Source: Branchiostoma floridae | Taxonomy: Eukaryota; Chordata; Leptocardii; Amphioxiformes; Branchiostomatidae | Assembly: GCF_000003815.2 (NCBI RefSeq) | Contig: NC_049985.1 | Location: forward strand, 10,328,206 to 10,392,205 | Direction: 5' to 3' | Length of the DNA: 64,000 bases | Shown here: positions 33,884-61,068 of the stretch, piece by piece | How the letters are laid out: each line of letters opens with the position of its first letter | Numbering within the stretch: the stretch's first letter is position 1 | Notes under the pieces: model-generated | The model's database searches: none | Seen by the model: only the letters and a program-made list of their open reading frames with translations | What the model was told of the DNA's origin: nothing | Position numbers and translations under genes: made by a program

Positions 33884-35512
33884 TCACGTGTGTCGCGCAC
33901 TTTCAAGTGTACTAACAAATCCCAAAAGGACTACTGGAGCTGGCTGTTCAGTTTGTTGTCGGCCAAATTTCGCGAAACAGTTCAAACATCCACGGTAAGG
34001 ACCGATGAGTTGTTGCCAGATCGCGTTTCTCAGGTCAGCCATGCGGATTATGCTGGCCAAAGGGTTGAGCGCCGAATTCAACGTCATGAGGAAAAGTACC
34101 CAGCTCGCGAAAGTTGCAGGTGAGCACACTTCCCTGTTCAAGAAGCAGAGTCGACCAAACGGGAGAGCCGCAAAAGCCAGCAGCCAGAAAACGAATGCCA
34201 ATGTCACAAGGATCATTACTGTTTTTGCTTTCCTTGCGCTGGATTTAAATTTTCTTTGGGTTTCGTCTTGTGCATGGCGGCCTGTCCTTTCTCCAGTCCT
34301 TCCAAGGTTCCCTCTAGTAGGTTCAGCCCATCGGGTCCTACCTACTCGGAACTGTCCTAGTCTCGTCTTTTGGCGTTGTTTGATTCTTACCAATACGCTG
34401 ATGTTTGTGAACATCAAGATAAATGCTAGGGACGCAATGATTGAAGCTACCAAAATGACATAGCTCAAAGTTAACGCAGTATCCTATGGTTACGGATTCA
34501 TCATACATACAATTCCACCCATAGAAGCTGAAAAGACGATTAACGACATTGTGATCCATGAACATATTATTGCTACACATGCATTACGCTTGGCCTTGGA
34601 AGTGTTGGTGTGGAAAATGATAGGGTGCCTCACGGCCATGTAACAATCTACAGATAGCAAAGTTAGAGCTGATGCCGATATGGTCTGGGTAAACAAGTTA
34701 CAGACAAAAAAGTGTAATGCAGCAACTACTCCGTAGTGCCTCAACTGACCAAAAGCCGAAGAAATAAGTAGCACGCCTGACAAAAGGTCTGACATGGCTA
34801 AATTTGCAATGTACATATACAGGGCCTTGTGGAGCTTTCGTGTTCCGATGATGCCCAAAAGAACCGCAAGATTGGCTAAGATGATAAAGACGCCAAAGGC
34901 TCCAGACATGTTCGGAAACCATCCTTTACTTGATAACACATATATGTCATATGAGGAGCAAGTCTCACTGGCCTCATTGTAGGACGCGTTCGTAAATCGG
35001 AGGTACCAGAAGTAACACTCAATCATACTGTCAAACGTCGGTGCTTTGGGAAACTGTAGAGGGTCCGAGCTGTTGTTGAACATGTCGGGAAACTGTAGAG
35101 GGTCCGAGTTGTTGTTGAACATGTCGGGAAACTGTAGAGGGTCCGAGCTGTTGTTGAACATGTCGGGAAACTGTAGAGGGTCCGAGCTGTTGTTGAACAT
35201 GTCGGGAAACTGTAGAGGGTCCGAGCTGTTGTTGAACACGTCGGGAAACTGTAGAGGGTCCGAGCTGTTGTTGAACATGTCGGGAAACTGTAGAGGGTCC
35301 GAGTTGTTGTTGAACATGTCGGGAAACTGTAGGGGGTCCGAGTTGTTGTTGAACATGTCGGGAAACTGTACAGGGTCCGAGCTGTTGTTGAACATGTCGG
35401 GAAACTGTAGGGGGTCCGAGCTGTTGTTGAACATGTCGGGAAACTGTAGGGGGTCCGAGCTGTTGTTGAACATGTCGGGAAACTGTAGAGTGTCCGAGCT
35501 GTTGTTGAACAT
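33884..35512 (-). pseudogene. Rhodopsin-type GPCR with N-terminal 13-residue repeats and two internal stops
   Basis: Single-exon class A receptor frame of 543 codons from ATG at 35,512 to TGA/stop at 33,884. Residues 1-156 are twelve 13-residue repeats. TM1 starts near GAFGVFIILANLAVLLGIIG; TM2 has the IANLAMSDLLSG motif; TM3 ends in SVDCYMAVRHP; TM4 is CVAIICSWITMSLIVFSASM. Then, in the same frame, come TAA (34,490-34,492) and TAG (34,484-34,486), after which TM5 (SYVILVASIIASLAFILM), a basic loop 3, TM6 (FVFWLLAFAALPFG) and TM7 (NSALNPLASIIRMADLR) continue uninterrupted. No frameshift exists. DRY is DCY and NPxxY is NPLAS. I call it a likely pseudogene or null allele; ligand unknown. A 27-nt GT-AG interval would remove both stops but is shorter than known animal introns. 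Confidence 0.7.
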
Positions 35513-35540
35513 GTCGGGAAACTGTAGAGGGTCCGAGCAA
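35045..35540 (-). repeat. 39-bp minisatellite coding for a 13-residue sequon repeat
   Basis: Twelve complete 39-bp units (35,045-35,512) and a partial thirteenth upstream (to 35,540) encode MFNNSSDPLQFPD with few changes (S/N at position 5, P/T, L/V). Every copy holds at least one N-x-S glycosylation site. Because 39 is a multiple of three, all frames stay open, including the opposite strand, which explains several spurious overlapping frames. Confidence 0.95.
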
Positions 35541-36659
35541 TGTTGTACAAGGCTGAACGCTGTAAATTTATAGCGACCGTGGACACAGGGGCAGCTGTCT
35601 TTAAAAGCCCAGGCCTTTACAACAACAAAACCTTTAATACTGCCCTATTTCCTATCAAGTCGATAATGCTATTTGAGCTGCAACTGACTTATGATATACA
35701 CAATATTACGATCATCGGGACTTCACCGGAATCAGCTGAAATGACGCCAATAAAACTCTTTAATTTCAAAGAACGGCCGAAGGTATTTCAGCTTATCTTA
35801 TCTACAACTGTCTTGACTTCTGTCCCTGCAGCGGTATCTATCTAGCCTGGTCTCATCAATTTTGAACATTTTGAACGCTCTGTGATTTCCGACCGAACTG
35901 TTCTCTAAGACTCACTGTAATATACAGCAATTCTGACAGTCAATAACTCTATGTTCGCACAATGTAGAAGCTCTGATATAAGTAGTTCGAATCGGTTTTT
36001 AAATACATGTAGTTAACTCACTATGATTGTAAATCTGTGCAATTTAGCCCCGTCCCGCTGCAAGACTACTTTTATCCTACGAAATTCTTAAATAACCTAG
36101 TCTACTTACCACTTTTTTCTCGCATACTTCTCAACCCAAGAGTTTGAAAGTTGCATGCTAAGAACAACAGGTGGGAAGTGTGAATGGCGGCAATGCTACA
36201 AATCCTTGAATCGAAGTACTTCAAATACAAAAGTCGTAGATAACGCTATGAAAGCTGCAGCTGCTTTTGAAATCTCCAACTCTGTTCATCTTCTTCCTAT
36301 GAGTAGACTAAACAAAGAACGGCAGCTGGCAAATCGGATCAGTGATAATGTACAATATACTTAAATATGAAATCCTTACGTACTTAAAAGACGAACAGCA
36401 GATGATGGAACATAAAATGCAGCTGCCATTAAACATTTGTCTGTCATTACATAAATCTCATGATCCGTCTCTCTAACATTATGTTATTTGAGCTGGAAAG
36501 AAAGGCGACAGACTGGATTAATGGTATTATGTTCTATTCTCTAAAGAGGAAATGTAGCGTGTTTTTTTATTCAAGAATATATGGAATAATACAAGGTTAC
36601 CCTCCAGTCACGGATTAAAAACTTACAGGTGCAATTCTGTACAGCCATCACACAAAAGT

Positions 36660-36790
36660 AGTGCAGTGTACATAAAACTTTATTGGTGACGCTATAACTG
36701 CATCAAGAGAAGGATTCCAAAATCTCACGGTACTGCAGTGTACGTAAACCCCGCTAGGTGGCGCTGTGGCTACATCTACTCCATGAGTCC
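36660..36790. repeat. Two-copy tandem repeat, period about 71 bp
   Basis: GCAGTGTACATAAAACTTTA with GGTGACGCTATAACTGCATC is followed about 71 bases later by GCAGTGTACGTAAACCCCGC with GGTGGCGCTGTGGCTACATC. The copies are diverged but collinear. Confidence 0.5.
36679..36684 (-). promoter_or_regulatory. Candidate poly(A) signal of the mucin/SH3 gene
   Basis: AATAAA on the minus strand, about 535 nt past the TAA stop at 37,219. It is the first canonical signal that I noticed downstream. Confidence 0.45.
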
Positions 36791-37218: not shown

Positions 37219-37799
37219 TTACACAAATGTTGCAGCATTCTCTGTAGAGCTCACAGGGAAGATTCCCCTGGTACCGTCCTGTAGTTCCCCATAGCTCCAG
37301 CCTGGGATGTCACTTTCCTATGGGTAAACCAAGGACACAGATAGTATCAACTACCATTTCAAGATGGTCGTGGTGAATCGGAAAATGTGATTGCCCTGTG
37401 CTTGTAACGCTCTTGAAATTCATGTTGTAACGTTACCGCTAGACAAGTGTACAACAAAGTAGGAAACAAGACGACTAGATCATTATGCTATTGCTAACAA
37501 TGTATAGAATATTAAATACTCCGACACATGTAACATATAGCGAACTGTGATGAACATTTCTTTCCTTCGAGAGACACGAATGGATAACACTACCAAAGCG
37601 TACTACAACAATAAATCCAATACGTCCATTACTTTAACAATGTCCCATTTACAAAAAGGACTGAATTTCTTTCCAACTCACCTCCAGCTCCAGGATGACG
37701 TCACCCTTGTTGAAGTTGAGATATCCAGGGCCCCTCATGGTGAAGGTTTCTATCGCTGTTCTCAGCTGGGTGTCCTGTAGATCCAGTTCTTCCAGCGTT
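37219..37799 (-). CDS. SH3 domain 3, split over the last two exons
   Basis: Exons 37799-37682 and 37317-37219 join in phase 0 inside the domain. TFTMRGPGYLNFNKGDVILE is the first half, and GWSYGELQDGTRGIFPVSS the second, with conserved Trp and G-I-F-P. The ALYDY motif is replaced by a divergent ETFTM, so ligand preference may differ. The protein ends TENAATFV, whose C-terminal T-F-V fits a class I PDZ ligand pattern ([ST]-x-V). Confidence 0.8.
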
Positions 37800-40700
37800 C
37801 TGAAAGTTTGCACACAGTCGTAACTGACCAATCTTCTTATAATCACATACGCTTGACATATTATCAACTAGTAGCTCAGAGAAGAACGAGCACAGACCTG
37901 AAAACTAGAATCAGAGTTATCAACCCAGGATTAAGGTACTCAGGAAACCGCTTCAAACAACGACTTTTTGGCAACGTTGACACATTCACACAATATAAAT
38001 CAAGATATTCGTTCGGTTCTGTCGTACTAAATCATCCATTAAATTGCATTAACTCCTTACTAGACTTGGAAGACGGCCAAAGATCCTACACCGAGGTGGA
38101 CCTGTCCTTGGTGCTGAACGGGTAATCACATAATTGAGATCCCTGTAGAAACTGGCGGACGTACAGCGATATATAGCAGGACAAGAATGATGGCTATCAC
38201 TTTCATTTAGCACCCCAATTTTTAATCTAATTACATCGCGCCCACAGCGTCCCTCTGAATTATCACCCAGGAAATAAGAGCTGTAACAGTTTACACGGTT
38301 TGCTTACTTCATGATGTCCGGAGCCGCCGTCACGCTGCTTCTTGACGGCCGGGATCTTGACAGCGAGCCCGTGGAGCCGACCTCCTGTTGGGTCTGTGGT
38401 GGGAAGCTACCGAGGCTCAGGTTGGGCGGCCGTCTGGACTTGTTTGACACTTGGGTAATAATAATAGAACGTTATTAGTTAATCAATAACTATAATGCTT
38501 CAACTGAAATGGAAAATACCAATACCAGAGGCCAATTGCTACAAAACCATGAAAAAGTACTAGTACTGTCTATGCCAAACTTTCTCCCTCCTCCTTAAAA
38601 TCTTGCTAGAAAATCTAAATTCACACAATGTACCAACTGTTTTGTTGACTATTGTTAACTTCAGATAGGTCCATGTTAACAAATCGTTCATTAACCCCCA
38701 AATGTGCTAAAATTCCATTCTGTTATCATGATGCTAACATTTATTCCACCCGTTCTATCCTGTTCCAATATCCTGCAGTGCTAGATTAATGTAAACGTTC
38801 CCCACGCAGATGTTACCTTGACTGGGAGTATCGTCTATGCTGGACTCCTCCAGCATGTCGAAGTTGATCGGCATACTGACTCTCCTGGAGGGGGATCTGA
38901 CGATGGTGGGCGGCTTGGGCGAGATGGCGACGGAGTGCCGCTGGGAGGGCTGGCGGGGAGGTTTGACCGGTACCGTACTCGGACCGGTATCCTGAACAGA
39001 TCCTGTAAAGGGATTCGGCATACAGTTAGAACAACAACATCCACTAGACAAGGAGACATTTGGAGATGAGACATTTCTGTAAAATTGAGAATACTTGAAG
39101 TTGAAACCAGCATGACAGTGATGGAGATAACAGACCGGAGCAGAAGCAGATGCCAGACAGTCATCGATGGGTCCAATGAGAGGACAAAGCCGTAAGGACA
39201 GATAGCATAGTGTTTACGACCTCATGGGATATTAGCATACATAACAGAGTGCCTTTAAAGTTATCCATAAATGTAGATTAGTTTTATTTTAGAATTGTCA
39301 GCTATCACCAATAGCTCAAGTCCCAGGTATGTACAAGTTGTCATACATTGTACCTGTCTCAATTGTCGCGCTATAAAGTTCTTCTTCCTATATTTCCGTA
39401 TATCCCTACCTTGCACTGAGCCACGCATAGATGGTTTCCTCTCGCTTGTGGAATAGGTCGGTGACTTTTCACTCTGGATCGGTGGAGGAGCGCCAAATGT
39501 GCCTCTGTGGGACCACAAGGTCAGGGAACATCAGGTAAAATATTATAGTTAGTTGCCATCCTGTGGGTTGTGATTAAAATCATTACCTGTTTTTCTGGGC
39601 GGAGCTCAGAAGTTACAAATGTGTAGTTCCATGGCATACTTAAAAAGGGAAGCATGCTGTTTTAATATCCGAATGAAAGCTCATCTGTGTTGGTAAATTC
39701 CATAGTGAAAAGTTTAAACTTTGTTCCAACACAAGGGAAGAAACTCGCCATAAATGCTGTTTTGACTGTTTTAGTAGTGTGTTATGTTCTTGGGTCTTCT
39801 TTTTGGGACCAAAGAATAGACATCATATAAAATTTTATAGAATTTCTCTTCATACCAAGAACTTACTGTTCACTCGTATGTATACTTTGGTGTATAGTTG
39901 ACTGTACGGACCTGTTCTGGTGCCGTGGTGCGGGTTGCTCGTGAGAGCTTGGCCGTACGGCTACCGTCGGTCTGCCGGGGCCGTCGTCAGCGTCGCTCGG
40001 TGAGTAGAACACCTCCGACGGGCCCTTGGCGCTGGGCTGTTTGTTCATGAGTGATTTCCGGACGGAAGGGCGCGGACGGAGCTCCCTCGGGCGGGACAGG
40101 GTGTCCTGTCCGGACTGCACGGACTGGTCCGGGGCCTCGGCTCTCTTGGTTTTATCGGTCGGTGGTTTCGGCGCTGGGCGCTGGGGCGGGCCGAGGGGTC
40201 TGGTGGGCTGCTTGGCGTGAGAGTGAAACGCACAAAATTGTCGAAATTTCACTTGATAAGCACATAACACGTGCTTATCGAGTAAATTCCAACCGATGGA
40301 GAAAAATATGTGATGTAACGCTATTTCACCCTTAACCACTGGGTAACGTTAACCTGTATCCGTTGCTTTTTAACACAGCGTTTTTGGGGATACCAGGTCG
40401 ACGGACGTTGGTTTAAAATTGCAATATTGTCAGTACATTGCAGTTTAAAACTACCACCCGTCGACTTGATGTGCCTAAATACGCTGTTTTGAAAATAACG
40501 GATTTAGGTTATCCCGCGGATAAAGGTGAACTAACGTTACCTGTTAACTTGCCAAGTATTCAAGACTCTGTATTCAAGACTCAATAATGAAATGTCTGAC
40601 GCCTACCTTTGTATCTTCCCCGAGCCTTTTGACATAGCTCTCTGGGAACCAGCCTTCCTTCCCCGTCTGCAGACAGATTCCCCGGGCCCAGCCCAGAGGA

Positions 40701-43700
40701 TCCCGCTCTATCACCGTTATGACGTCGTCTTCTTCAAGATTCAACTGGTTCTCGTCGGTGGCCCTGTACCCGTACACCGCGATGTAGCGTTCTGTGTGCG
40801 GCGAGGGATCGGAGGCCTTGGGAGAGTCTGGGATAGAACGTTGACATTCGAAGTAGTGTATTGGCTTATGGTGTATCATTGTCCTAAAGGTATGCAGCAG
40901 TAAGAAAGCCAGCCCACTACCTATGCTTAGAGAATAATGTCATGGGGAAGGTCTCGGAAACGGCCCAAAATGAGTGGCTTAATACTAGTAGTTGCTTGAA
41001 CGAAGTTGCGATTTTTTGATTGGCACCGAGTTTGCTCAGTACAAGGCCATTAAAAAAAAAGTTAAAGTCCTTCCCGCGCCTGATGGCGCATAGGGCGGCG
41101 CCCATCTCCGTTTCAGTAGCCCTTGGGCCACACAACGCAATTACTACAGCAGGGGGCTAGTCCACTGGTAGCGGTGTGTGTTCAACTTCCATACTCTTTC
41201 CCAAATGCTGAGTGCTAAGCAGAGAAAGAAGCATGTACCATTTTTAAAGTCTTTGGTATGACTCGGCCGGGGATCGAACTCACGACCTACCGAATGCAAG
41301 GCGAACACTCTCACCACTAGGCCATTGGCCACTTTTAAACACTGAAGTACTCTTACTGTAGCAGCATCTCTACTCCCTAAGTCAGAAACATCGAGCTTTG
41401 CCAAATTCGACTAACTGACTTAATAGGGGAAGCACGGGTTACAAGGCTGCTAGGGAAAATCCTTACCCTATTTTAACCAAACTAAAGACACGATACCTTC
41501 AAACCACAGTTAATAGTTAATATGTGAGATTTAGACACTGTACTTACCAAACTCTGGGGGCGGTGGCGGCAGGTCCAGCTCCAGGGCGGACTCGGGTTCG
41601 CTCAGCCTCAGCGCCATGGACAGCTTCCTGTCACGCCCCGTTCTGTCTTCCGAGCTCCTGTTATTATAAAATTTACTTTTACAACATCAGTTGACCAATG
41701 ATAAAAGCTCCTTCAGTTGACAGAAAGTCAACAGAAATTAAGAACTTAAGAACCTCAGATAAATTCCTACGCAGAAGAGTATAATATAATCGTGCACCAC
41801 CGCCGCTCTTTCCCATGTAGCAAAATGTGAAAGGTAAACACAGTAGTAAATACTAAAAAGGAGGATATTAAGTTTTGTGTTGTGTTGGATGACTTTATGT
41901 CTGCTACACGAACGTGTATCTGATTTTTTATTTGTTGAAATAAGAGACCAACCTTCCGCTCCTGTTGCTTCGCATGGAGGCCTCCCTGTCAGGCAGGTTG
42001 GTGTTCATGATGAGGTGCATGCGGCTCTCCTCCGCGGTGTCGGGCTGCCCGGTCCTCAGCACCGCCTTGGCGTGCGGGTGGGTCCGCACGTGCGAACGGC
42101 CCACGCTGCCCATCCAGGGGATGTTGGGGGAACCCAGGGTAGACGGTGTCCTGGATACATGACTTATGTTTATAAATAAATAAAGATACAAGCTAAGAAG
42201 CAAAGGAACAAGAAGAACCAGCAGATATCCAGTGGATTGTAGTTGGTCGCACTTATTTGCATGATGTATGGCTTTGGTCTGCATACATGTAGGTGCGTCC
42301 TTCGTTTGTTTTGCAATTTGGATGTCTTTGAATGATGTCTTTAAAAAACAAAACACACGAGCTTAAACATGTACAAAAAGATCGAAATCGCACAGCTCTA
42401 GAGGCAAAACATTGACATACATCTGCTTATCTGACGTATCTAAAAATTGGTCTTTTACCTGCTGGCGCGAGATGGCGGGCGGGACGACGACACTGACTCC
42501 TGGGCGGTAGACGCGAGTGACACGGGGCTGTCGCTGCGTCCGTTCGGCGGGGTCGTCTGCGTGTTCTCTGAGATATCCGGCATGTTCCTGAGGGAGGCTG
42601 ACGTGGACACGGATCCGATGCTGATGTTGTCCACACTCCGTGCAGGAGGCGTCGTCTCATCCTCGTGTGCGAGAAGTTCGGGAGGAGGGGGAGGGAGGGA
42701 CAGGTTGCTCAGGGACGCCCTACGCTGTACATCATCGCTAGTTTCTCCTGTGGCCCGAATGGGCAGTGTGGCATCGGAGCCAGCAGTGCCGTTTGGCAGG
42801 AACGTGGTTTGTAGAGAAGGGGGAGGGTCCGGTAGAGATGACTCCTCGTCATGCACAAAACTGGGGTTTTCCGTACCTGTTGGTGTCATAGAACATGTCA
42901 AATGGCTTCAGTGCAACTCCTCAGTATCTAGAAAATCATGTATCGGATTATTTGCAAGCAGGCGCTCGGATCATAGTAATCGCGTTTTCTTGTAAGTCTC
43001 TTGAGTTGTAAGGCAAGGGTTCAGTGAAAACCAGGCTAGCCACACAAAACACTGTCAAAAGAAAAACTAAGCCATATGCATGCATCTAATTGGAAATTGC
43101 GAACAAGCGATCGATACAAATGGAAAATGAGATGTGAACAGACAGGAGTATCTGGAAAGAACTGACCTGCGACCTGTAGATGCTTGGTAGGAAACCAGCC
43201 GATCTTCTGCTGACTCCGGCCGAACCACCAGTCATCTGTGGGTTTGTTGATGACCTCCACTTCCTCACCCTTCACCAGGGAGATCTGGTCCTCAGCCTCG
43301 GACCTGTAGGACTCCTTCACTCGGTACCTTTCCGCGTTCTTTGGTTTTGTGCCTTTGTGAACAATAATGAAATGTTGACGAACTGGTTTGAATGCCTCAC
43401 TATGTATCAATCAAAATGAAAAACACCAACCCGTACAGAATATTTACATGTACCGTATAATCAACTTTCCGAGGGGTGTAAAAATCTTGCATCAAATGTA
43501 AAATCTTTATACAGAACCTAATTGTAATCGCTACATTTCAACCGCCAGGCTACCAAATACACTGGTTCCAGTAAATATATTTGAGCTATTGATATTGAAC
43601 TTTGCCGCCTTACATTCGATATCGATCGTCCGTCTGTGCGCGGAGCACTATTGACATTGGCAATGTAGCATTACAACTGCTGGCACCTGTTTTCTTCCTG

Positions 43701-46700
43701 GGCACTGAGTTCCTGTCCGGACGGTCTAACAGTTTTTCCCTCGGAGCCCGGCCCGGGGTGCCGTTGGTCTGTCCCAGAGGCAGCATCTCTTCCTCATCAG
43801 TCAGGTACTTCTCATCCAACTACGTGAACAGTATGGGAAGTAGTGAGTTTTAAAAACATTCTCTGTAAACCTAGCCAAAGCTACGAAACTCCTCCTGTAT
43901 TTAGAAGCGTACATGTTCTTTGACCCTGTTTTTGACAAAGAGGGTGCAGAGTTCGATCACTATTGATATTGCAGAGTGGGAACGGTTGGAAGTACTGCAC
44001 AGTGCATACATTGTAGACTAAGACATCCTAACTTTGAACAATGATGTATTATTGAATTCAAGACGTCTTACACGTCAAAAGGTCCTACCAGTATTTTACA
44101 TGGAAAGGTACATTTTAAGAAATATTGGCCTTGGTAGGACTACCATTTTTGTGCCTACATGTACGTGTTTACCTGTAGTTAAAAACAAAGCGACTTATCA
44201 ACTTTACCTGTACAGGTCTGTTACAGCACGTAACACAAGCGATGATGATGATGACGATGATGAGCACCACCATGGACGCCCCCACCCCAGCCACAATGGG
44301 CATCCACAGGTCCACATCCTGTGGTGCTGCTGTGGTGGTGTCAGTGCCGAGTCCTGGCGTTGTCACATCCGTGTTTTCCACTGGGGAGACAACGACCACC
44401 GGGCCCACTGAGCTTGCAATTGGTGGAGAAGTGATAGGGCTTTCTGGGCCTGTGGTTGGAGCTTTGGGGGCTGTAGTTGGGATGGGGGCATTGGTAGTTG
44501 GCAAGTCAGTTGACGTCGTTATGATTTGTTGAGTTGTAGTTGTTGGTGGTTCGGGAGTGGTGGTTGGGATAACTGGGATGGGGGTCGTTATTTCTGGGGC
44601 TGTAGTTGAAAAATCCGTTGTTGTAGTTGTGACTTCAGGGGTCGTAGTAGGGAAAGGAACAGTGGTTGGTAATTCTGGGGTGGTCGTTGGTATTGGTGGG
44701 ATAGGGGTTGTAATTTCTGTAGTTGTAGTTGGAAAATCAGTGGTTGTAGTTGTTATTTGTGGCGTTGTTGGTAAGTCAGGGGTGGTTGTTACAATTTGCG
44801 GGATTGTAGTCGGGCTATATGGAGTAGTAGTCGGCAGTTCTGGAGTTGTAGTAGGTACCGGTAGGGTTGGCGTTGTTACTTCTTGGGTTGTCGTTATCAA
44901 TGGTGGGCCTGTGGTAGGAATATCTGGGGTGGTTGTTGGCGCTTCGGGTGTTGTAGTTGGGGCAGTGGTAGTTCTTTCTGGGGTTGTAGCTGGGGTAGTG
45001 GTTGGTGGTACTGGGGTGGTGATTTGGACGGTTGGATTGTTGGTTGTTGGTTCTGGGACGTTAGGACTTACAGCTATGATTAGTGGGGTTGTTGTAGTCG
45101 TGCTGGCTGATGGGACTGGTGTAGTTATTTCAAGAGTAGTCGTTGAAACGTCGGTTGTGATCTGTGGCGTTATGGTCAAGACGCCAGTGGTTGCAATTTG
45201 TGGTGTTTGAACAAGCGCATTAGTGGTTGTAGTTTGTGGTGTTGTAGTTTGTAAGACCGTGGTTGTAATTTGGGGCGCTATGGTTGGTAAATAAGTGGTT
45301 GTAAGTTGTGGTGTTGTTGGAGAATCGGTGGTTGTAAGTTGTGGTGTTGTAGTTGGCAAGTCAGTGGTTGTGATCTGTGTCTCTGTAGTTAGTGCACCCG
45401 TGGTTGTAGGTTGTGGTGTTGTAGCTGGTACATCAGTGTAAGTAGGCTGTGGCATTGTAGTTGGTAGGTCAGTGGTTGTAATTTGTGGTGTTGTAGTTGA
45501 TTCATTGGTGGTTGTAAGTTGTGGCATTGTAGTTGGTGCATCGGTGGTTGCAAGCTGTGGTGTTGTAGTAGTTGGCGCATCAGTGGTCGTAAGTTGTGGT
45601 ATTGTAGTTGGTATAGCAGCGGTTGTGATTTGTGGTGTTATAGTTGGCACATCCGTGGTTGTAGGCTGTGGCGTTGTAGTTGTAAAGTTAGTGGTTGTAA
45701 TTTGTGGTGTTGTGATAGGTATATTCGTTGTTGTATGTTGCGTTATTGTAGTTGGTAGGTCAGTGGTTGTAAGTTGTGGTGTTATGGTTGGTTCATCGGT
45801 GGTTGTGATTTGTGGTGTTATAGTCGGTACATCGGTGGTTACAATTTGTGGTGGTATAGTTGGTAATCCAGGACTTGTAGTCGGGACAGGTGTTGGTAAT
45901 TCGGGAGTGGTTGAAGGCTGTGGCGTTGTAGTTGGAAAGTCAGTGGTTGTACGTTGTGGTATTGCAGTTTGTGCATCAGTGGCTGTACGTTGTGGTGTAG
46001 TGGTTGCTGCGTCTGTTGTTGTAATCTGCGGGGTTGTAGTTTGTGCGGTAGTGGTTGTAATTTGTGGTCTTGTAGTTGGTAAGCCATGGCTTGTAGTTAT
46101 CAATTGTGGGTTTGTAGTCGGGGCAGGCGTTGGTGATTCGGGAGTGGTAGTTGGGATGTGCGGGGTGGCCGTAGTTCTGTCTGGTGTCGTCTCTGCAAAG
46201 CCAGAGGTTACGAGTACCACAGTTGATGAAGAGCCATTCGTCACAGTAGATGGTACATCGGAGACAGTAGAAGCGGTTGGCGGGTTGGGTGTTGATGGCG
46301 AGGGAGTGACTGGCAAGCCTATAGCTGTAGACTGCGACTGGACATCTGGAATAGGAAACATTCATTTAAACAATAATATAAGACAGCAGATCATTTACAG
46401 CATTGTTTGTACCGAACTATGGATTCGTGGTTGGAAGCATTGCAACAAGAAAGATCATACCATAGCAATGATCTAATAGTATACAAAGGTTGGAAGTAGC
46501 TAAAAGAAACAGGCAGTTCTGTCGCCTTAAATACTACTCATCAACTTGAAAGGGTCACTTTGACATTTTCTTCACTACGACTGACAGTGTACATCAACCC
46601 AAAAACGCTACATCATATTCAAACATTTCCTAACCGTGAGAACGAAGGTGAGGCGTAGATTATCGCCATAATCATGTTATGTAAATTGGTTTCGCATCGA

Positions 46701-47860
46701 TCGATGTTCCCGCGGCGGTTCTTTGGTCTTTCTTGGCTGTTTGTATTTGTTCCTGCCTGAACTCACGTCCGCTATCGACCGCACGTCAGGCAAACTCGTA
46801 TGGCGGACTTGTACTTTGACTTTACCTTGTCACACAGTTGAGCCCTTCCTTATTAAAAACTAACAGTCTGACAGTGCCATAGATCAAAGAAGCTAGAAGA
46901 AAAATAGCGTCTCTAATCATGTTGTTTGCCATGCCAAAATTCGGGAGACTTGGAATGTTGCACACTCATATTCGACTGGCATCACAGAGCACAAAAACGC
47001 TCAATGAATATAGAAATGTAGGTTGCATCAGCCTAGTGTCAACTTCTTTGGTATATGTAAACTTTACGTTTCTCGGTAAACCATTACTTCGAAAATATTT
47101 GCTAGTTTTGACCAGTGACAAAATCACGGACGGTACAAACTCTGAGGCTCACGTCGTGAAATAGTAGCAGACTGTTTAAAGAGCCTGTTCATAATAACAC
47201 TAAGGTCACCGCTTAAAGGGTAATCCCCAAAGATAATTTTCTCAATGTACCGGGGATATACTAAATCCGGGAGTAGATTACGTTATCGTTAGTGTTTTGG
47301 TATTTATCTACTTTAAAGCCAACTTAAACATCCATTATGCATCCATAGAACAACGTTTCCGTTGTTTCACTCACTTGAACCTTGTACGACGTGCACGTGA
47401 TGTGGGTTACCAGGCATGACGCCATGGTCTCAAAGTCAATGACAGGATGTCAGTGATCTTTCAGATCTTTAAAAACAAAGTAGAAAATCCTAATGCCTCT
47501 TTTATTCAGTGGTTTTCGTAAGGCAGCTATATGAGAACTAGATCTGGTGGTACAAAGTTGGCGAATCAATTTTTCTTCATTGATTTTTCAATGACTCATG
47601 TCTGTGAGAATGCGAACATACATGTAGCTGGTCCATTGTTTAGGGCGCACTTAAGGTGACTTTCCAATCAAGAAAAGAAAGCTAATCACAGTTCTCAAAA
47701 CACACACACTTTTACTTGTGTTGGACGTTAGCGAAATCACAGTGTGGCCAATGTCAGCGCGGGTAAATACAAACCCCTTACCTTGGACATGAACAGATAC
47801 CGTGTACAACAGCAGTACGGCAGTCCACGAGCAAACTCCACAATGTCGTCCGCGCCACAT
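37219..47860 (-). CDS. Mucin-like type I membrane protein with three cytoplasmic SH3 domains
   Basis: Fourteen exons, read downward: 47860-47782, 46345-44208, 43819-43687, 43352-43167, 42876-42459, 42150-41953, 41657-41548, 40827-40607, 40210-39912, 39504-39410, 39002-38817, 38449-38308, 37799-37682, 37317-37219. Every border is GT-AG, every phase agrees, and the total is 4,422 nt: 1,473 residues plus TAA. Order of parts: signal peptide (MWRGRHCGVCSWTAVLLLYT), Thr/Pro mucin to about residue 705, transmembrane helix 709-732, then a 740-residue tail with SH3 domains at about 792-845, 1100-1156 and 1417-1468, separated by Ser/Pro-rich linkers with PxxP motifs. I do not recognise the architecture. 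A plausible role is linking a glycosylated surface rod to cytoskeletal or signalling partners. The weakest junction is the acceptor at 38,450 (ACCCAAG). Confidence 0.85.
38817..40210 (-). CDS. Proline-rich cytoplasmic linker exons
   Basis: Exons 40210-39912, 39504-39410 and 39002-38817 encode a Ser/Pro/Arg-rich linker between SH3-2 and SH3-3. Visible ligands include RPLGPPQRPAPKPP directly after SH3-2, PVKPPRQP (exact PxxPxR) and ISPKPP. Tyr-containing segments (VFYSPSD, SPTYSTS) could be phosphorylation sites. No domain is recognisable. Confidence 0.75.
40607..40827 (-). CDS. SH3 domain 2 exon
   Basis: The exon encodes ERYIAVYGYRATDENQLNLE then EDDVITVIERDPLGWARGIC and KEGWFPESYVKRL. The ALYDY-like motif is AVYGY, the RT loop is TDENQ, the conserved Trp is in GWARG, and the GWFPESYV end is canonical. 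All key ligand-binding aromatic positions look intact. The next exon begins with a proline-rich run. Confidence 0.92.
41048..41334 (-). mobile_element. tRNA-derived SINE
   Basis: The minus strand carries pol III boxes: A box TGGCCTAGTGG (forward 41,314-41,324) and B box GTTCGATCC (forward 41,271-41,279), spaced as in a tRNA. A unique body of about 200 nt follows, and the element ends in an oligo-T/A run at 41,052-41,061. The octamer AGGCCATT is found at both ends (41,044-41,051 and 41,319-41,326) but the second copy overlaps the A box, so a target duplication is not proven. It lies in an intron of the mucin/SH3 gene, same strand. Confidence 0.7.
41953..42876 (-). CDS. Ser/Pro-rich linker exons between SH3-1 and SH3-2
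   Basis: Exons 42876-42459 and 42150-41953 (with 41657-41548 following) encode a low-complexity linker. It contains SLPDPPPSLQTTFLPNGTAG, a polyproline run SLPPPPPELL and a basic, His-rich segment (SHVRTHPHAKAV). The small exon 41657-41548 ends LDLPPPPPEF. No known domain. Confidence 0.75.
43167..43352 (-). CDS. SH3 domain 1 exon
   Basis: The exon reads ERYRVKESYRSEAEDQISLV then KGEEVEVINKPTDDWWFGRS and KIGWFPTKHLQ. The SH3 hallmarks are present: an acidic RT loop (EAED), the WW pair in DDWWFGR, and the G-W-F-P start of the last strand. Two donors are possible 7 nt apart; only the distal one (GTCAGT after GCAG) keeps phase with the next exon. Confidence 0.88.
44208..46345 (-). CDS. Mucin-domain and transmembrane exon
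   Basis: One 2,138-nt exon encodes about 680 residues made almost only of Thr, Pro, Ser, Ile, Gln and acidic residues, with no Cys in the ectodomain. A loose 12-residue unit, ITTTDLPTTTPQ and variants, repeats for most of its length; the membrane-distal part is less regular (TPSPSTPNPPTASTVSD). Dense Thr/Ser next to Pro predicts heavy O-glycosylation. It ends WMPIVAGVGASMVVLIIVII then IIACVTCCNRPVQ: a helix followed by a Cys cluster suited to palmitoylation. Confidence 0.88.
44480..46140 (-). repeat. Imperfect 36-bp coding minisatellite (mucin repeat)
   Basis: Units of about 36 bases encode variants of TTDxPTTTPQIT. Copies differ at many sites and some are shortened by one or a few codons, always in frame. 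The opposite strand is open and reads as Val/Gly-rich nonsense. Confidence 0.8.
46346..47781 (-). other. Intron 1 of the mucin/SH3 gene
   Basis: 1.4 kb between the signal-peptide exon and the mucin exon. No exon or recognisable element seen. Confidence 0.65.
47782..47860 (-). CDS. Signal-peptide exon of the mucin/SH3 gene
   Basis: The ATG at 47,860 starts MWRGRHCGVCSWTAVLLLYT followed by VSVHVQ, a short basic start and hydrophobic core typical of a cleaved signal peptide. The exon ends in phase 1 at a GTAAGG donor and joins exactly to the mucin exon (VQ-D-VQSQS). An in-frame ATG farther upstream (47,947) exists, but starting there would bury the signal peptide. Confidence 0.8.
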
Positions 47861-48014
47861 CGTCCTTTCTAGCGAGAGAACTTGTCCTGTTAATGTCCAA
47901 CAAAAGATATCTGTCTGTCCACACGATGGCAAGATGGTAACACACACTTGAAGGCTTCTTTAGAACGGACAAACTGTACTTCTTTAGGGGACTTCGAAGT
48001 TGCCTTCCGTCCCC

Positions 48015-48025: not shown

Positions 48026-50823
48026 TACTTTACCCGTTTACAGGTGGGTTGAATATTAACGCGACCTATCCCGGGTTAAGTGTAGTTTGTACCTGTTGAC
48101 TGAGCGCTACTGGGTTGGCTGTGCGTACCTCTGGCGACAGGCAACGCCTCTGTTCCGCTTGAGTTAGCCGACTGTGTTTACCTTCAAATTTAGATAAAGT
48201 ACCGCGGACAGGTGTGTAATTCCGAGGTGTCCTGCCTAGGACGCTGTCTGTCAGCTACTTCGTTTGAACAAGTCTGAAGTTGATGAAGTAATAACTTGCC
48301 GTTAGGGATGGAGGGATTGACATGAAAAAAAGGAGACTTAAGAAGATTTATCAGTTCAAGCTTCTCGATTTTTAATATACTTAGAACAGTTCAAGTCTCC
48401 CGATCCTTTATATACTTAGAATGCTGCCATCCATTGCTATTCTGCCCATTGGTATATCCGTTGTTTTAATTTGTAAACAGGTCTAGCCCTAGCCCTTTGC
48501 AATAGTTACAGGCTAGTTGGGAAATAGACTAAAGAACTTCAAGAGTTGAAAAAGACGAAGTGTGTTCCCGATATACATCTAAAGTCTGTACATTTTATGT
48601 GATATCTAAAGAAAACTGTATCTTAAAAGCTGTCCCTTATGGCGCTTACAAATTTGACACTGGTTTTAGCTCAAACTTTGCTCCTCCCGCATTCTTACTA
48701 CTGAAGACAAAGCATTGCAATTTGCATGCACAAGTTTATAAACATACACAAACTTTGTAGTGTGCACTTCTTACGCAAGTCAATAGGTGACGCTATGTAC
48801 ATCCTTGGTGTGAAGGGTCGACGGTGGCAAAGTGAAATGCTGCAGTCTGTTCTGGCCAAATCAATAGTCAAGAACTGGTTATTATGACTTTACAGTCCAC
48901 ACCCTCAGAAAAACACAACACATGTTCGTAAGTACGGTAAAGTGTAAATATGGGTAAGATTTACTCATCAACTTCGATCAATTTGTACGGAGGCCAACAT
49001 AACGTTATCATTGAAATTAGCAAAGTTACACAATATACTGCTAACGCATATCTTTGCACAAAAGTTTCCGTTTACATGTTGCAGACATACTAGTATATGA
49101 TATCAACGACTCCTCAATTTTTCAGGCGAACACATGATTGACTAGTTCAATATCAAACCGCTAGGAAGCGCTCATAAGCTGTGTAGACTATTGTAACTCT
49201 TTGGCGATATTTTGCGAGACTATTGAAGCTTCCTGGGTCGGACAGTTCCCGTCGCTATGAGATACAAAGTGTACTTCAATGTTGTTTCAGATATCATGTT
49301 TTTTGAAAGGAGACATATCAACCTTGTAGGAAGAAATACGACCACAATTTGTTTCAAATTATCACATGGGGTCTCACATGTACGGGCGGTCCAAGATATC
49401 CCCAAAGAAGAACGTTTTGGTTCATGGATGATGACCGTCACGCACAAGATGGATTAAGCACAGTGAGAGAGGAAAGACAGCACATGTGACCATCTTCCGA
49501 CGAAACAAGCGGATAATAGAGACAACAACAACAACATTCATTTCTAACTGCAATACTTTACTAATAGATACCCTATTCTCCAAGTAGAGGTTGGGTGGCT
49601 GGGGTTATAGGACTTATAGTAGTTAGTGGCCGGGATTTTTTCCGCTCGCTTCTGACCACTGGGATCCCCGCGACCCAACCCCTGTTTAAAGAATAAAATA
49701 CCTCACGATGTTCTATGATGATAGAAAATTACTGGGAAAAGAAATACCGCCATGTCATGTTTAGCAACATGGTTAACGTGAACTACTGTAGAGAGAGTGT
49801 GCTTTAGCCTCTTTCATCATGATCTTTCATATTTACGTTAACGTTAACGTTATCATGATCTTCCATGGAATCTCTTTCCTAGACAAAGCCCCTTGCCCAG
49901 ACCCAGGACGTCTTTGGCTTTGCAGTCGTCTCATTACAGATCAATAGAAGAACAGGGCTAAGGCAGTGACATTACCAGTGTGACCCATATTGGCAAATTG
50001 ACAAAAGAGCTGTTAGAGCTTTTTGTCGTTCGTTCCGGTCGGGTAAGGGTTGGCAAAAGTTCTCAAGAACTGTGATCCCGCTAAGCATTTCCATGTTTTC
50101 AATAACTCAAAGTTAACGCCAGTCAAAACAGTTTAGAATTCCTGTATTTAAAAGCGTTTAACTCTGGCGACTCTCTGAATACAATAGTCAAGTAGTTAGG
50201 AACTTTTCTGTTCTTCTTTTTGAAGTGACTTTAGTTTCCAAACGAAAAGTTAGTTAGAAATGGTACAGTTAGTCAAAAACTGTAACTGAGACTGAGGCCA
50301 AGTTTCTTCAAGTGTTCTCTCGGCGCCTTGATTTCTTCGGTGGTGCGGTCGAGTGTTGTGTGTAATGCGGTATGTCCCTCCGCCCGTGTGGCATGGCAGG
50401 CATGCAGACTCACATGTGTGGCCCGCCACTGTACTCACAACACTCACCACGGCCAGGTCGCCAGCCAAGCCTCGGGCACACAGCTCAAGCCGGCAGGATC
50501 GGCTTCAACATAGCGGGACGGATCGCTTAGCATAGCCGAGGAGTTAGCTGGCATCGGGCGCTGGTGTTTCGTTCGGTACAGACATTCTGCAAGGCGAAGT
50601 TTGTAGCAAGTTTGTTGCGAAGTTCAGCCGGTGTGTTTATGAAACTGGCAGCGACTCCGGGACCTTTTTTCTGCTGCAGAGCCGACCTTGAGACGCTGGT
50701 ATAAGAAGCATCCGGGCTACATCTTGAAGTAGTGGGAAGTGGAGTTAGTGTCTTAGATTGTGTTTGACTCGGTTGGCAAACTCGGCATCAGAGGGGGTCT
50801 GGAGAGCGGAGCTGAGCTCAAAC
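48026..50823. other. Intergenic region between divergent genes
   Basis: About 2.8 kb separates the divergently transcribed mucin/SH3 and FREM2-like genes and should hold both promoters and the FREM2-like 5' UTR. Apart from a short palindromic repeat at 49,586-49,683 and a GTTAACGTTAACGTTA run near 49,840 I see no element and no gene. Confidence 0.55.
49586..49683. repeat. Short inverted-repeat element
   Basis: AGAGGTTGGGTGGCTGGGG at the left is matched by inverted CCCCGCGACCCAACCCCT at the right, and an inner AGTGGC/GACCACT pair nests inside. It resembles a small foldback or MITE-type repeat. No target duplication recognised. Confidence 0.45.
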
Positions 50824-53800
50824 ATGGCGCGGCTGTGGAGGAGAGAGGAGGGGATGTTGTGGTGTGTTCTCCTGGCCTGCCTGTGGACCGTGGCGCTGTG
50901 TCAGCGGGCCGGGACCACCAGGGACAACCTCATCCTCACCAACACCGGCATCAAGGTGCCGTTCGGCCGCTCGGTGTTCCTGGACCCGGCCCGGGACCTG
51001 CGGATCCGGGTGGTTCCCGGGGACAGATGCATCGTGACGGTCCTGCAGAACGACCCCCTGTCCCAGCGACCTGGCAGGCTCATGCCCAACTCCTTCCCCT
51101 GCGACTTCGGACAGAATGAGGTTAGACTTTCTTTTAAAAAATTCATCTTAAAGTTAACGTTAACGTTTCTTCCCTTTATCTGCAAATTGGAAATATTTCC
51201 TCCAATATAAACACCCCTTGTTCAACACAATTTGATTGTTAGCCGAAAGTTCACACTTTTTTTGTCGTTTACAACACCCTTTCAACTTTTCACGAGAAAG
51301 TTTTAACGCGCCGAAATTTCCTTTGAGCTAAGCTTGTAGATGGGCTTCCTTCGAAGTATGTACTGTGTAGTTATCAAGAGAAGCCAGGGATTCTCAATTG
51401 CGTTGGAGTTTTTTTGGTGCTAGGTGAAATAATTAGATTCAAGAAATAAAGTAAAAACTTTGGGGTAAAGGAGGAGACCGGGTGTTTACAATCGGAGGTT
51501 TGGACAAATATTTAGGGGTTTCGCTTGGATAAACAAGGGGGTTTGCCGAAGTGTTTACCTGCTTGTCAGGTCCCCAGTGCAAAGTTTTGTACAACAAGTT
51601 TATTTTTGGTGGCGTCTGGACTTTTTTGCCGGTTTACCCAGGGACCAGAAATATTTGCTTTGTCAGGGATAACAGCAAACCCGGGATTGTTCTTCTCACT
51701 TTTTCGTTTTTATTAGCTTATTGTTGTTTTTATGCCTCTGTAATGATAAAGAGCTGGAGTAATTTAAAGATTAGATTAGAGGAAACCACCTATAATAACA
51801 ACAATCTGGCTGATCCTGTTAATTAAACCCCTTATTGTGAAAGAGGTGAGAAAGTTTTTCTTTGTCTTTCCTTCACTTGTGTGTCCTGTGTTAACTGGCA
51901 CATAGCCAAAGGCCTTCCCCACTCCCCTACCTCACCATTGACATTGAAATGTATAGTGTTTACACGAAATACACAAATGATCCGTCCGCCTTTTTATTCT
52001 CCCATTTCACGCCTATCAAGTAGAGCAGGGGGGCTTTTGTACAGAAGCACTTACACCATTCCAGCCACTTGCCTCAAAGCTTTGAACTGGGGTTTGTAAG
52101 ATAGGTGGCACAGAAAAAAGTTCCCACAGTCTAAAGGGTTGCAACTTATCATGAAGAAAGGCTGTCTATTTAAGTCTCGAAGCAAGTATTAAAAGAGCAA
52201 TCAATGTTAATTTTTGAATGATTTGATAGGGCATACTGAAAGTTGCAAGATTTGTAGATAGTTATAGAATAGAAGGCTGACGAGTGACGACAAAGCCAGG
52301 GCTCCTTCAGCAGTCGGTAAACTGTTTGGAAATCTAAACTGTTAGAAAACAAGTACATTGTAAGTAGTGCTAATGTCAGGGTACAAAGCTAATATAATGC
52401 TGAACCCCTTTGCTAGCTCTACAGAAAATGGCATGTGAGCTCAGAACATCCCTCCCAGAGTCCAGGCTGATGGGAAGAAAGCTTTCTAATTGGTTGACAC
52501 ATTGTACTGGGATGGTTAAACAAACCTGGGACAAGTTATGGACTGGAGTCCAACTGTGTGCTTGTGTTGCCAATTGGCTACATTGGCCATGCTCCTGTGG
52601 AAAAGGCAGAGTTTGTATCCTGCAGCAATTAGCCTGGCCAACCATTTGTGGACACCTCTAAATGAAAGCCATAAGTTCCCAACTTGTGGGAGCTTCTGCA
52701 GTGGTACTGCAAATTCTTCTACATTTGTGATAGTTTTATTCATGACAGGTGGGAAAGGGAGGCTTTCACAGTGATTTTGATCCACCGGACTGATGAAACA
52801 ATTCTGTCATACTGAAGTCATGGAGACATATTCTTGACGTCACGGATTTTTAGTGGAAAAGTCACCATGGAAGAAAACACAGTAAAAGTTTCACAATTTA
52901 CGGTAGCCAGCTACACTGTAGTTGATAGACTACACCCCTTCCTGTCAGCAAGCAAAGGGTGAATTATTTTTCTCTTTTTCCCCATCTGATAGACCAAGGA
53001 GGTTTTTAACTCCTTGATGTAAATTGAGCCTAGACAGGAATTTGGAAGGAAAGATTTTATTAAGCAGCTTGGGACATGTGTTTATCAGATTGAGATACAG
53101 GATTTGAATGATTCGAATTCCTAATTACAAAGAAGGCAGCTAACTTCAAAGACCAAATCTACCAGGATTTAAACCATTGTTCATAGTACTATGAGAGCAG
53201 TGTATGGTGATAGGCTGAAAAAAGTATATTGTCTGACAGTCAGCAGGAAGTGTGATTTTGTGTAGGATGCAAGTAAAACATTTTATTTGAGAATACCATT
53301 CTCCATTCAATGGAACTGAAAAGTACATAAACTTGTATACAGGAATGTTCAACTAGGATTTTGGGTTGCCATGGTAACTTGAAGTACTTTGACCAATCAG
53401 GTGTGTCAGTCCTGCTAGTTGTGGGAGGGGGTGATGAGTGGAACAGTTGGCTGGGCTTGTGTTATGTTTAGCTGTCCAATTTGGTCAGGTCTGTTTGAGT
53501 GGAAACCATTCTGAAGCTAATCCTACCCCATGGTTGGATGGTGATGACCACCAGCCTAACCAGGACCAGGCCAGCACCCTGTGCACTTGAGGCTGTTCCA
53601 AGTCAATTTCGTGTTTTAATGGCAAAACAATCCTACATGATGATGTTAACCATTACAAAGACACGAGAAGAAGCCGTTCTATTAGACTTGATATATGATA
53701 CTTTTACATGTAGGTTTTGTCCTTGTTTTGGCCTCTACTTAGTTCATTTGGCAAAAATGTTCCTTCAAAGTCTTATATAGTTTTTAAATGTAGCAGCCCA

Positions 53801-59416: not shown

Positions 59417-61068
59417 GTAAAGCTTTACTGTTTCTAGAATTGATGTTTAATTCTGTTTCTAAGTCTACTACAGTTGATGATTTTGCCTTGTGTATGTGAC
59501 CCCAAACGAAGGTCATCCTCTAATCCATTTTCCTGTCTTCAAAGAGCCAGGCTTTCTTGCATGTGCTGTTACAATCCCTTTAATGTCAGCCATGGCTTAG
59601 TTCACCTTGATCTAGAGCCGCCTAAGAATGCAATCACAGGCGCTCAGTAGGACAGCTAGTCATGGCCTCATTGGGAAATGTCTGGGAAAAACTGTCCAGC
59701 AGTTCCTACCGCTACATTCATAGACAGACCATTCCAGTCAGGTTTTGCTCTGGAGGGGGGAAGGGAGGGATTGAACGCAGTCTTGATGGGTTTTAACAGG
59801 TTCTTCATGCTCTTGGTACTAATAGATGTTGCTGAACTTTCTGGAATGAAGATCTTCATATCATATCTAGTGAGTGAAGCACCTCACAAGAATGCATTTA
59901 AAAGTAGTTTACCTTACCCCCAAACCCCTACAATGCATGCTTAGCTAGTATGACAGTATCTGAGCAAGTCTGGGTCATGAACAGTGCCATGTAGTCAAAA
60001 TTGGCCTGCTGTGCTGCTGTGTGCGCTGAAAAGAATGGTATGAAACCACTCTCTAAATGTCATCTCCTGCCCTGCCAGGGTTTTCAATCCTGATTTGTTT
60101 TTATCTGGCATGCCAACTGTCCCAACTCTGACTTGTGTCATCGAAGAGCCATTCTTGCGTATATATCAGAGTCATCTTCCACTCATTTTCTTGAAACCAA
60201 ATTGACCAAGTCACAATCTTAACAGCTGTTAGCGATCAGGCGGTACTTTTTATATCAATCTGAACATTTGTTACATGTCTTATATATGCACATACAAAGG
60301 CTGTCTGATTCAGAATTGAGAAGGAAGCCTTAGGCCTGTTCAAATTAATAAAGTAAGGCATGTCAGGAATGCCATAAGTCCATTTTAGGAGCCTGAGAAG
60401 ACCATGGGTAATTGGGAAAAGAAGTGTTTCATTAGTGGTAGGAGAAATGAGCTTGAAATCAGAGTTGCTGTTCCAGGTCTGCTTGTTACCTCAAGCCTCC
60501 CTTGTTACGAAGGCCAGGGCCTTGGCTGTTTCCAGAATCAAAGGCATTGCCAAAACACTTCATTAGACAGTTTCCAGCTGCCAAGTTCGTGACTGTAACC
60601 TCATTAACTCATTGGAGGTGTTTGGCCGTGTCCTGTCCCTGTGTAAATAGCCAGTAAGAGTGTCATATCTGTGATGGTAATGGTGTCACTTCAATTTGTA
60701 AGTGATGGAGTGATGCTGTGAGATTGGAGCATTTGGTCCTGGTGTTCTTTTATTATACGGTCATCGTAAGATCACAAGCCAATGTCATTCTTAAAATAGT
60801 CTTGCATGTATCTTACAAAATTCAGACGTCCTGTTATGGCAAAAGCTGTCTTATATCCTTGTTGATCACTTGGCAGTTGGTTCTGTGCACTTCTGTCACT
60901 CTCGCAGTGGGTTTGAAAATTCTATTATAACATGAAAATCAAATGATGGCGTATGGCGAATGTGACTGCACTGTAGTGCCGACAAGGGTAGGCGCTCTCT
61001 ATTTTGCAAAACATCGGATTGTTGCCATTCTTCACATTCATACACACCACATATAATCAGATACCTTA

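Follow-up and report, generated by a model that had tools for sequence, protein, structure and literature searches.

We analysed a 64,000-nucleotide stretch of the genome of the lancelet Branchiostoma floridae (C7:10328206-10392205; hereafter the window) and found on its minus strand what is very likely one gene for an unusual predicted receptor, in which a mucin rod at the cell surface would be joined through the membrane to three internal SH3 modules. As a rule, a surface receptor in animals has no SH3 domain of its own and relies on cytosolic adaptors such as NCK or GRB2 to supply one. A preliminary description of the gene had recognised no family with this architecture. The order of the modules is indeed unusual; however, the yeast protein Fus1p has the same plan, and other genes in the same genome (a 513,431,437-base assembly in 431 contigs) appear to join immunoglobulin (Ig) domains, a transmembrane helix and an SH3 domain in a single chain.

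Predicted structure of the mucin-SH3 gene

When rebuilt with splice sites read from the sequence, the 14 minus-strand exons, which run from 47,860 to 37,219, close in one frame with all splice phases matching, as had been described (Table 1). The earlier count of 1,474 codons and 1,473 residues was one too high: with the short form of exon 9, the open frame has 4,419 nt, or 1,473 codons including the stop, and the product has 1,472 residues. Exon 9 can end at either of two donors, which share one phase and both keep the frame: GTCCGT at 39,912 or, with a stronger signal, GTAAGT at 39,867. Use of the second adds 15 residues (SVQSTIHQSIHTSEQ) to give a product of 1,487 residues, which we think is the more likely major form. 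An in-frame stop at 47,962 lies upstream of the ATG at 47,860, and the gene sequence contains no undetermined bases.

The preliminary description had also held that the matching phases exclude an artefact of frame picking. Frame closure alone is weak evidence because keeping the frame was itself a criterion in choosing the splice sites, but other properties of the exons support one gene. GC content is 0.49–0.67 in the exons compared to 0.34–0.45 in the introns (with the long exon 9). With the neighbouring FREM-like gene as the reference for codon usage, and again with the long exon 9, we compared the three forward frames of each exon and found that the chosen frame was the best in 10 of 14. 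SH3-1 and SH3-2 are encoded by one exon each and SH3-3 is split over exons 13 and 14, so this last junction is checked by homology. Together, exon composition, codon usage and splice signals argue for one gene, and our confidence in the gene structure itself is high, if short of complete.

The exon 2/3 junction, which makes the fusion, is based on splice signals, composition and codon usage and not on homology or RNA. Picking exons across it could therefore have fused a mucin gene that ends in or near intron 2 to a separate gene for a cytosolic SH3 adaptor, and indeed, the frame of exon 2 stays open for a dozen codons of intron 2 before a stop (after VKLISRFVFNYR), while a methionine twelve residues into exon 3 (LDEKYLTDEEEM) is a possible start. 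However, the donor that terminates exon 2 (CAG|GTAAAG) is a good one and exon 3 scores 0.31 by codon usage in the frame set by exon 2, compared to −0.59 and −0.13 in the other two, which makes two separate genes very unlikely. The 388-bp intron 2 at the mucin/tail boundary also contains neither AATAAA nor ATTAAA; this is a weak argument for one gene because 7 of the 13 introns contain neither (one or the other occurs in introns 1, 6, 9, 10, 11 and 12). What weighs against the one-gene model is that codon usage does not favour the chosen frame in exons 1, 9, 10 and 12. If intron 2 were retained, the product would stop twelve residues later, and alternative processing could in this way make a short-tailed mucin.

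Because SH3-1 occupies a phase 1-1 exon by itself, the mucin-SH3 architecture probably arose by exon shuffling. Lancelets are reported to gain new domain pairs unusually fast, at more than 10 per million years, with a bias towards 1-1 phases (PMC4284660; this and the other papers are cited from excerpts).

Predicted protein and its cytosolic tail

Hydropathy, composition and Pfam bear out the earlier picture of a mucin-type protein that crosses the membrane once and carries three SH3 domains on its cytosolic side, all within one frame. The N-terminus has a signal-type hydrophobic core (AVLLLYTVSV), and the protein contains a single hydrophobic 19-residue segment above 1.6, followed by Cys-Cys; both signal peptide and helix were called from hydropathy, not with a dedicated predictor. 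The ectodomain of 678 residues consists of 37.5% Thr, 18.3% Pro and 4.3% Ser (60% for the three together), has three N-glycosylation sequons and no cysteine, and holds a long tandem repeat array (Table 1). We infer from this that the rod is O-glycosylated and the protein sits at the cell surface. Transmembrane mucins such as MUC1 likewise combine a Thr/Pro/Ser rod with one helix. Most vertebrate members of this group have a SEA, NIDO or EGF module near the membrane and, to our knowledge, the known tails are short and without SH3 domains.

A Pfam search of the whole product, a check that the preliminary description had suggested, found three SH3 stretches (SH3_1 at 7.1e-30) and no other family at E ≤ 0.1; at this threshold there was no SEA, NIDO, EGF, Ig, SH2 or PX domain. 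All three SH3 domains lie in the cytosolic tail of 738 residues (12.3% Pro, 12.3% Ser). Searched singly, SH3-1, SH3-2 and SH3-3 gave best E-values of 8.2e-12, 3.4e-14 and 1.1e-8, with scores of 45.1, 52.6 and 35.2 bits, all above the respective curated cut-offs of 21.8, 22.9 and 30. The closest PDB sequence to both SH3-1 and SH3-2 was neutrophil cytosol factor 1 (p47phox; 3.5e-18 and 1.3e-11), and that to SH3-3 was SH3RF2 (6.9e-7). The SH3-2 exon alone was predicted to fold as an SH3 domain, with a mean predicted local distance difference test (pLDDT) score of 85.0 in the best of five models (48.2 in the lowest), and this predicted fold had 531 PDB matches at E ≤ 0.001 with SH3 domains at the top.

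The similarity of SH3-1 to p47phox and to the SH3 domains of NCK recalls the multi-SH3 adaptors. NCK and p47phox are cytosolic proteins that carry SH2 or PX domains.

We compared the ligand grooves of the three domains with those of 88 SH3 domains in 80 stretches of the same genome, picked from 147 SH3 matches; most copies on contig C14 were left out of this yardstick, and 7 of 95 domains were dropped as shorter than 45 residues. SH3-2 has a complete set of groove residues (Y, Y, D/E, W, P, Y). In SH3-1, the first tyrosine of the ALYDY motif is replaced by Glu and the tyrosine of the 3-10 helix by His. Similarly, SH3-3 has Glu and Ser at these two positions, and Gly and Pro in place of the acidic residues of the RT loop. 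Among the 88 domains, 62 have Y, F or W at the first groove position and 68 have Y or F at the last. A serine at the 3-10 position is tolerated in a natural SH3 domain, since the SH3RF2 chain matched by SH3-3 has it as well. With the groove aromatics missing from SH3-1 and SH3-3, three equal proline-binding modules are not to be assumed. Our prediction is that SH3-2 has classical PxxP ligands, whereas SH3-1 and SH3-3 serve some other purpose.

The linkers contain two LPPPPPE sites that resemble the ligand motif of EVH1 domains (Ena/VASP). The pattern [FWYL]PPPP occurs twice in the tail compared to 0.015 times expected (P = 0.0004 in 5,000 shuffles). SH3-ligand patterns occur at chance level, with one class I motif where 1.40 were expected (P = 0.77) and one class II motif where 1.41 were expected (P = 0.76). 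PxxP overall shows no enrichment (14 compared to 11.1 expected, P = 0.20), whereas R[RK]x[ST] sites are slightly above chance (five compared to 1.5, P = 0.021). With class I and II motifs at this level, we do not claim an intramolecular SH3-PxxP lock of the kind found in p47phox. The PDZ contact proposed earlier for the C-terminal TFV is doubtful, as it would be cramped by SH3-3, the alignment of which ends six residues from the C-terminus in the best PDB match and nine in the best Pfam match.

We hypothesize that this tail could act as a built-in adaptor made up of SH3-1, a Pro/Ser-rich linker with the two LPPPPPE motifs, SH3-2, a basic linker and SH3-3. If the rod were crowded, pulled or clustered, the tails would be gathered with no separate adaptor. 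Actin or endocytic regulators rich in proline would then be recruited by SH3-2, and EVH1 proteins of the Ena/VASP type perhaps by the LPPPPP motifs, while the atypical SH3-1 and SH3-3 might either have non-classical ligands or serve to hold the tail together. We infer the ligands, the actin or endocytic output and clustering as the trigger, and regard an adaptor-free link of this kind, from the glycocalyx to the actin or endocytic machinery, as evenly poised between right and wrong. If it is true, the glycocalyx would have a tie to actin or endocytosis that needs no phosphorylation-dependent recruitment. With the receptor's own SH3 scaffold under the mucin rod, whether the sugar rod alone drives clustering of the tails would also become directly testable.

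Several details of the tail speak against this mechanism. The P-value for the LPPPP sites is too small, because shuffling ignores the natural clustering of prolines, and the usual first residue of EVH1 motifs is Phe, not Leu. Self-binding of the SH3 domains is without statistical support, given that class I and II motifs are no commoner than expected. The single-sequence prediction for SH3-1 gave no fold (pLDDT 57.6, predicted template modelling score 0.12), although this is uninformative either way.

The tail could also serve a protective glycocalyx mucin that is simply turned over, with the SH3 domains used for endocytic sorting or removal and no signal of its own. PDB matches of SH3-1 and SH3-2 include SH3 domains of intersectin, vinexin/SORBS, NCK and cortactin, in agreement with such a role, and the exon 5 linker contains NPSF at residue 849. 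However, NPSF is one short motif and neither NPF nor NPxY, and sorting would hardly seem to need three SH3 domains in a tail of 738 residues. We consider this explanation rather unlikely.

For the built-in adaptor, a precedent comes from Fus1p of Saccharomyces cerevisiae, an O-glycosylated protein that crosses the membrane once and whose cytosolic SH3 domain binds the formins Bni1p and Bnr1p (PMC3817587, PMC3718343); formin binding is the part that supports the proposed mechanism (PMC3817587). The Fus1p SH3 domain prefers proline-free peptides (PMC2756588). The yeast and lancelet proteins both have a Ser/Thr-rich ectodomain, one membrane pass and cytosolic SH3, a likeness of layout only in which glycosylation is predicted on the lancelet side, and the unusual specificity in Fus1p parallels the atypical SH3-1 and SH3-3. 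The two differ in that Fus1p is fungal and has one SH3 domain and no long repeated mucin rod. This rare plan is thus already used in yeast, and such fusions are to be expected now and then in a lancelet genome.

Yeast also provides the model for a receptor that would sense osmotic or mechanical stress and feed into a kinase cascade, a one-chain analogue of Msb2/Hkr1 plus Sho1 in which the glycosylated rod would inhibit until stressed and the SH3 domains would then dock a kinase. Msb2 and Hkr1 are highly O-glycosylated single-pass proteins that become active when the Ser/Thr-rich domain is deleted, and the membrane protein Sho1 has a cytosolic SH3 domain that docks the mitogen-activated protein kinase (MAPK) kinase Pbs2 (PMC4411306, PMC8533825). 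In that system a mucin-type sensor and a membrane-held SH3 domain act as one unit, and the lancelet protein unites both parts in one chain. However, the yeast unit consists of several chains with a high-osmolarity glycerol (HOG) MAPK output, Sho1 has four transmembrane helices, and the Pfam search of the lancelet protein returned no known signalling domain besides SH3. This proposal is pure analogy, and we think it unlikely.

Other SH3 genes in the lancelet genome

A search of the genome for SH3 domains gave 147 matches (150 of 223 candidates scored), at least 30 of them on C14. We read ten of these 30 exons in their context (loci L101–L108 and L114), chosen mostly as matches of SH3-2 and not at random. 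All ten are preceded on the same strand by a transmembrane exon, which also encodes a basic stretch and two adjacent tyrosines, in the form FYYNM in eight and FYYDI in two (L106 and L114). Ig exons lie farther upstream in nine; in the tenth (L102), the transmembrane exon touches the edge of the sequence read. Three consecutive Ig exons are present in four genes (L106, L107, the minus-strand gene of L108 and L114), and the other genes have a short upstream part or yielded fewer Ig exons. Some of these genes match by construction, because the profiles were built partly from the same loci; six of the ten (L101, L102, L106, both of L108 and L114) are outside the transmembrane seed. Pfam identified two Ig exons and one SH3 exon as I-set (1.7e-16), Ig_3 (6.7e-17) and SH3_9 (1.9e-17). 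All seven C14 genes for which both sites were displayed had a phase-1 transmembrane donor and a fitting SH3 acceptor, the fitting pair being taken from several candidate sites per gene.

The same order of Ig, transmembrane and SH3 exons is found at a locus on C16 (L112), where a phase-1 donor (CAG|GTTCTT) was located in a wider scan, none fitting in the first. In contrast, the control SH3 loci on C3, C7 and C15 (L109–L111) had no family-type Ig or transmembrane module, nor did a further control on C15 (L113) in the 5.9 kb read upstream. FYYNM comprises both YxxM and YxN, motifs that overlap in CD28 as YMNM, and PPPY was present in three of the tails displayed (L102, L103 and L104). Separately, the first Ig-like exon of the four genes with three such exons has no cysteine, so the usual core disulphide would be missing from that domain.

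These features suggest an expanded family, arrayed on C14 with a relative on C16, in which at most three Ig domains and a single helix are combined with one SH3 domain and a YYNM tail resembling that of CD28. Like the mucin-SH3 gene, its members combine a surface ectodomain, one helix and cytosolic SH3 in one gene; they differ in their Ig ectodomain, single SH3 domain, basic FYYNM/FYYDI tail and many copies. The mucin-SH3 protein contains no YYN and lacks the FYYNM/FYYDI tail. The array looks like a diversified recognition repertoire, perhaps an immune one. We know of no described family with the Ig-transmembrane-SH3 order, and no animal protein with this or the mucin-transmembrane-SH3 order was recognised among the titles listed in the open-licence literature, which does not establish absence.

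We searched the genome with a 735-residue query from the mucin-SH3 tail; 61 of 97 candidates were scored, and weak relatives could thus have been missed. Of at least 35 matches, 12 were the gene's own exons 3–14, and the best of the other 23 reached 2.3e-6; 21 of these covered only SH3-2 and two only SH3-1. None of the 35 matches listed covered SH3-3 or a linker alone, and no second mucin-SH3 gene was seen among the candidates scored. Among the matches listed, 18 of the 21 to SH3-2 lie on C14, with 42–51% identity. Over aligned columns, SH3-2 is up to 46% identical to SH3 domains of C14 and 43% identical to a SORBS-like SH3 domain (L040), and the closest to SH3-1 among the genome SH3 domains fetched was the second SH3 of an NCK-like gene (42%). 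Also among the closest to SH3-1 was an SH3 domain from a long frame on C4 (L059, C4:21873917-21875795), in which two SH3 domains flank a Ser/Pro/Lys-rich stretch and which, at a guess by eye, is perhaps a Tks/SH3PXD2 relative.

In a FastTree phylogeny of 101 SH3 rows and 56 columns, with a few loci entered twice, all ten SH3 domains of the Ig family fell within one 24-tip clade that contained none of the mucin-SH3 gene, and supports along the paths of the latter three were low (0.36–0.87). An earlier tree grouped SH3-2 with loci on C3, C7 and C16 (0.876 for six tips), and the neighbours of SH3-1 and SH3-3 differ between both trees. No derivation of the tail from NCK, Tks/p47phox, a SORBS gene or the C14 family could be favoured, the nearest SH3 identities being about 34–46% and the trees low in support and in disagreement on the nearest neighbours of SH3-1 and SH3-3. 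Because the SH3 domains of the mucin-SH3 gene do not group with the C14 family in these weak trees, the two look like independent joinings of a surface protein to SH3, though this is not proven.

Amphioxus is already known for ‘shortcut’ receptors that skip an adaptor by carrying TIR, death-fold or caspase modules, described in 2008, and a hybrid of tumour necrosis factor receptor and caspase is backed by complementary DNA (PMC2575513). They resemble the genes described here in fusing a receptor to a downstream module in one chain; neither SH3 nor immunoglobulin occurs in the main text of that paper. We hypothesize that lancelets have a class of adaptor-free receptors with built-in SH3 domains, assembled more than once, which would include both the apparently single-copy mucin receptor and the expanded Ig family and would dock proline-rich actin or signalling proteins directly, a proposal that we think as likely to be right as wrong. 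If it is true, the Ig-SH3 array would point to a strategy that lancelets have used repeatedly, and to a candidate repertoire of diversified receptors in a basal chordate. To specialists this array should come as more of a surprise than the single mucin gene.

Feature positions and neighbouring genes

Table 1. Positions in the window of the exons, motifs and other features of the mucin-SH3 gene
Feature	Position	Strand	Remark
Exon 1: start codon and signal peptide	47782..47860	-	hydrophobic core AVLLLYTVSV
Exon 2: mucin rod, transmembrane helix, CC juxtamembrane	44208..46345	-	
Tandem array of Thr/Pro repeats	45222..46081	-	36 nt (12 residues), 23.9 copies, 68% matches
Predicted transmembrane helix, residues ~709-731	44232..44300	-	19-residue hydropathy up to 3.17
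Exon 3: juxtamembrane segment, residues 740-783	43687..43819	-	
Exon 4: SH3-1	43167..43352	-	phase 1-1, 186 nt
Exon 5: Pro/Ser-rich linker	42459..42876	-	with NPSF
LPPPPPE motif 1 (EVH1-type), residues 906-912	42677..42697	-	
Exon 6: linker	41953..42150	-	
Exon 7: linker	41548..41657	-	
LPPPPPE motif 2, residues 1080-1086	41552..41572	-	
Exon 8: SH3-2	40607..40827	-	complete groove residues
Exon 9, short form	39912..40207	-	donor GTCCGT
Exon 9, long form	39867..40207	-	donor GTAAGT, +15 residues in frame
RPAPKPP, class I SH3-ligand pattern	40160..40180	-	frequency not above chance
Exon 10: linker	39410..39504	-	
Exon 11: linker	38817..39002	-	
PVKPPR, class II SH3-ligand pattern	38953..38970	-	frequency not above chance
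Exon 12: linker	38308..38449	-	
Exon 13: first part of SH3-3	37682..37799	-	
Exon 14: remainder of SH3-3, C-terminus TFV, stop	37219..37317	-	
AATAAA behind exon 14	36679..36684	-	candidate poly(A) signal
AATAAA behind exon 14	36566..36571	-	second candidate poly(A) signal

Three other genes were noted in the window. A teneurin-like gene on the plus strand (~15068-29700) was judged by eye from EGF-like and YD/RHS-like frames, with an arginine run at the end of its last long frame. The FREM-like gene, also on the plus strand (50749-59499), matches Frem_N (4.1e-55), one part of it in an exon near 50.9 kb and the other in a 1,585-codon frame, and Cadherin_3 (2.8e-210), with 12 stretches in that frame. 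Near ~61900-62150, a run of undetermined bases lies inside sequence that is repeated on both sides, a probable assembly gap in a duplicated stretch. On the minus strand, a rhodopsin-type receptor (7tm_1, 33884-35644) has at its N-terminus 12.6 copies of a 39-nt repeat (FPDMFNNSSDPLQ) that match at 96% and are rich in N-glycosylation sequons; this array may vary in length between individuals.

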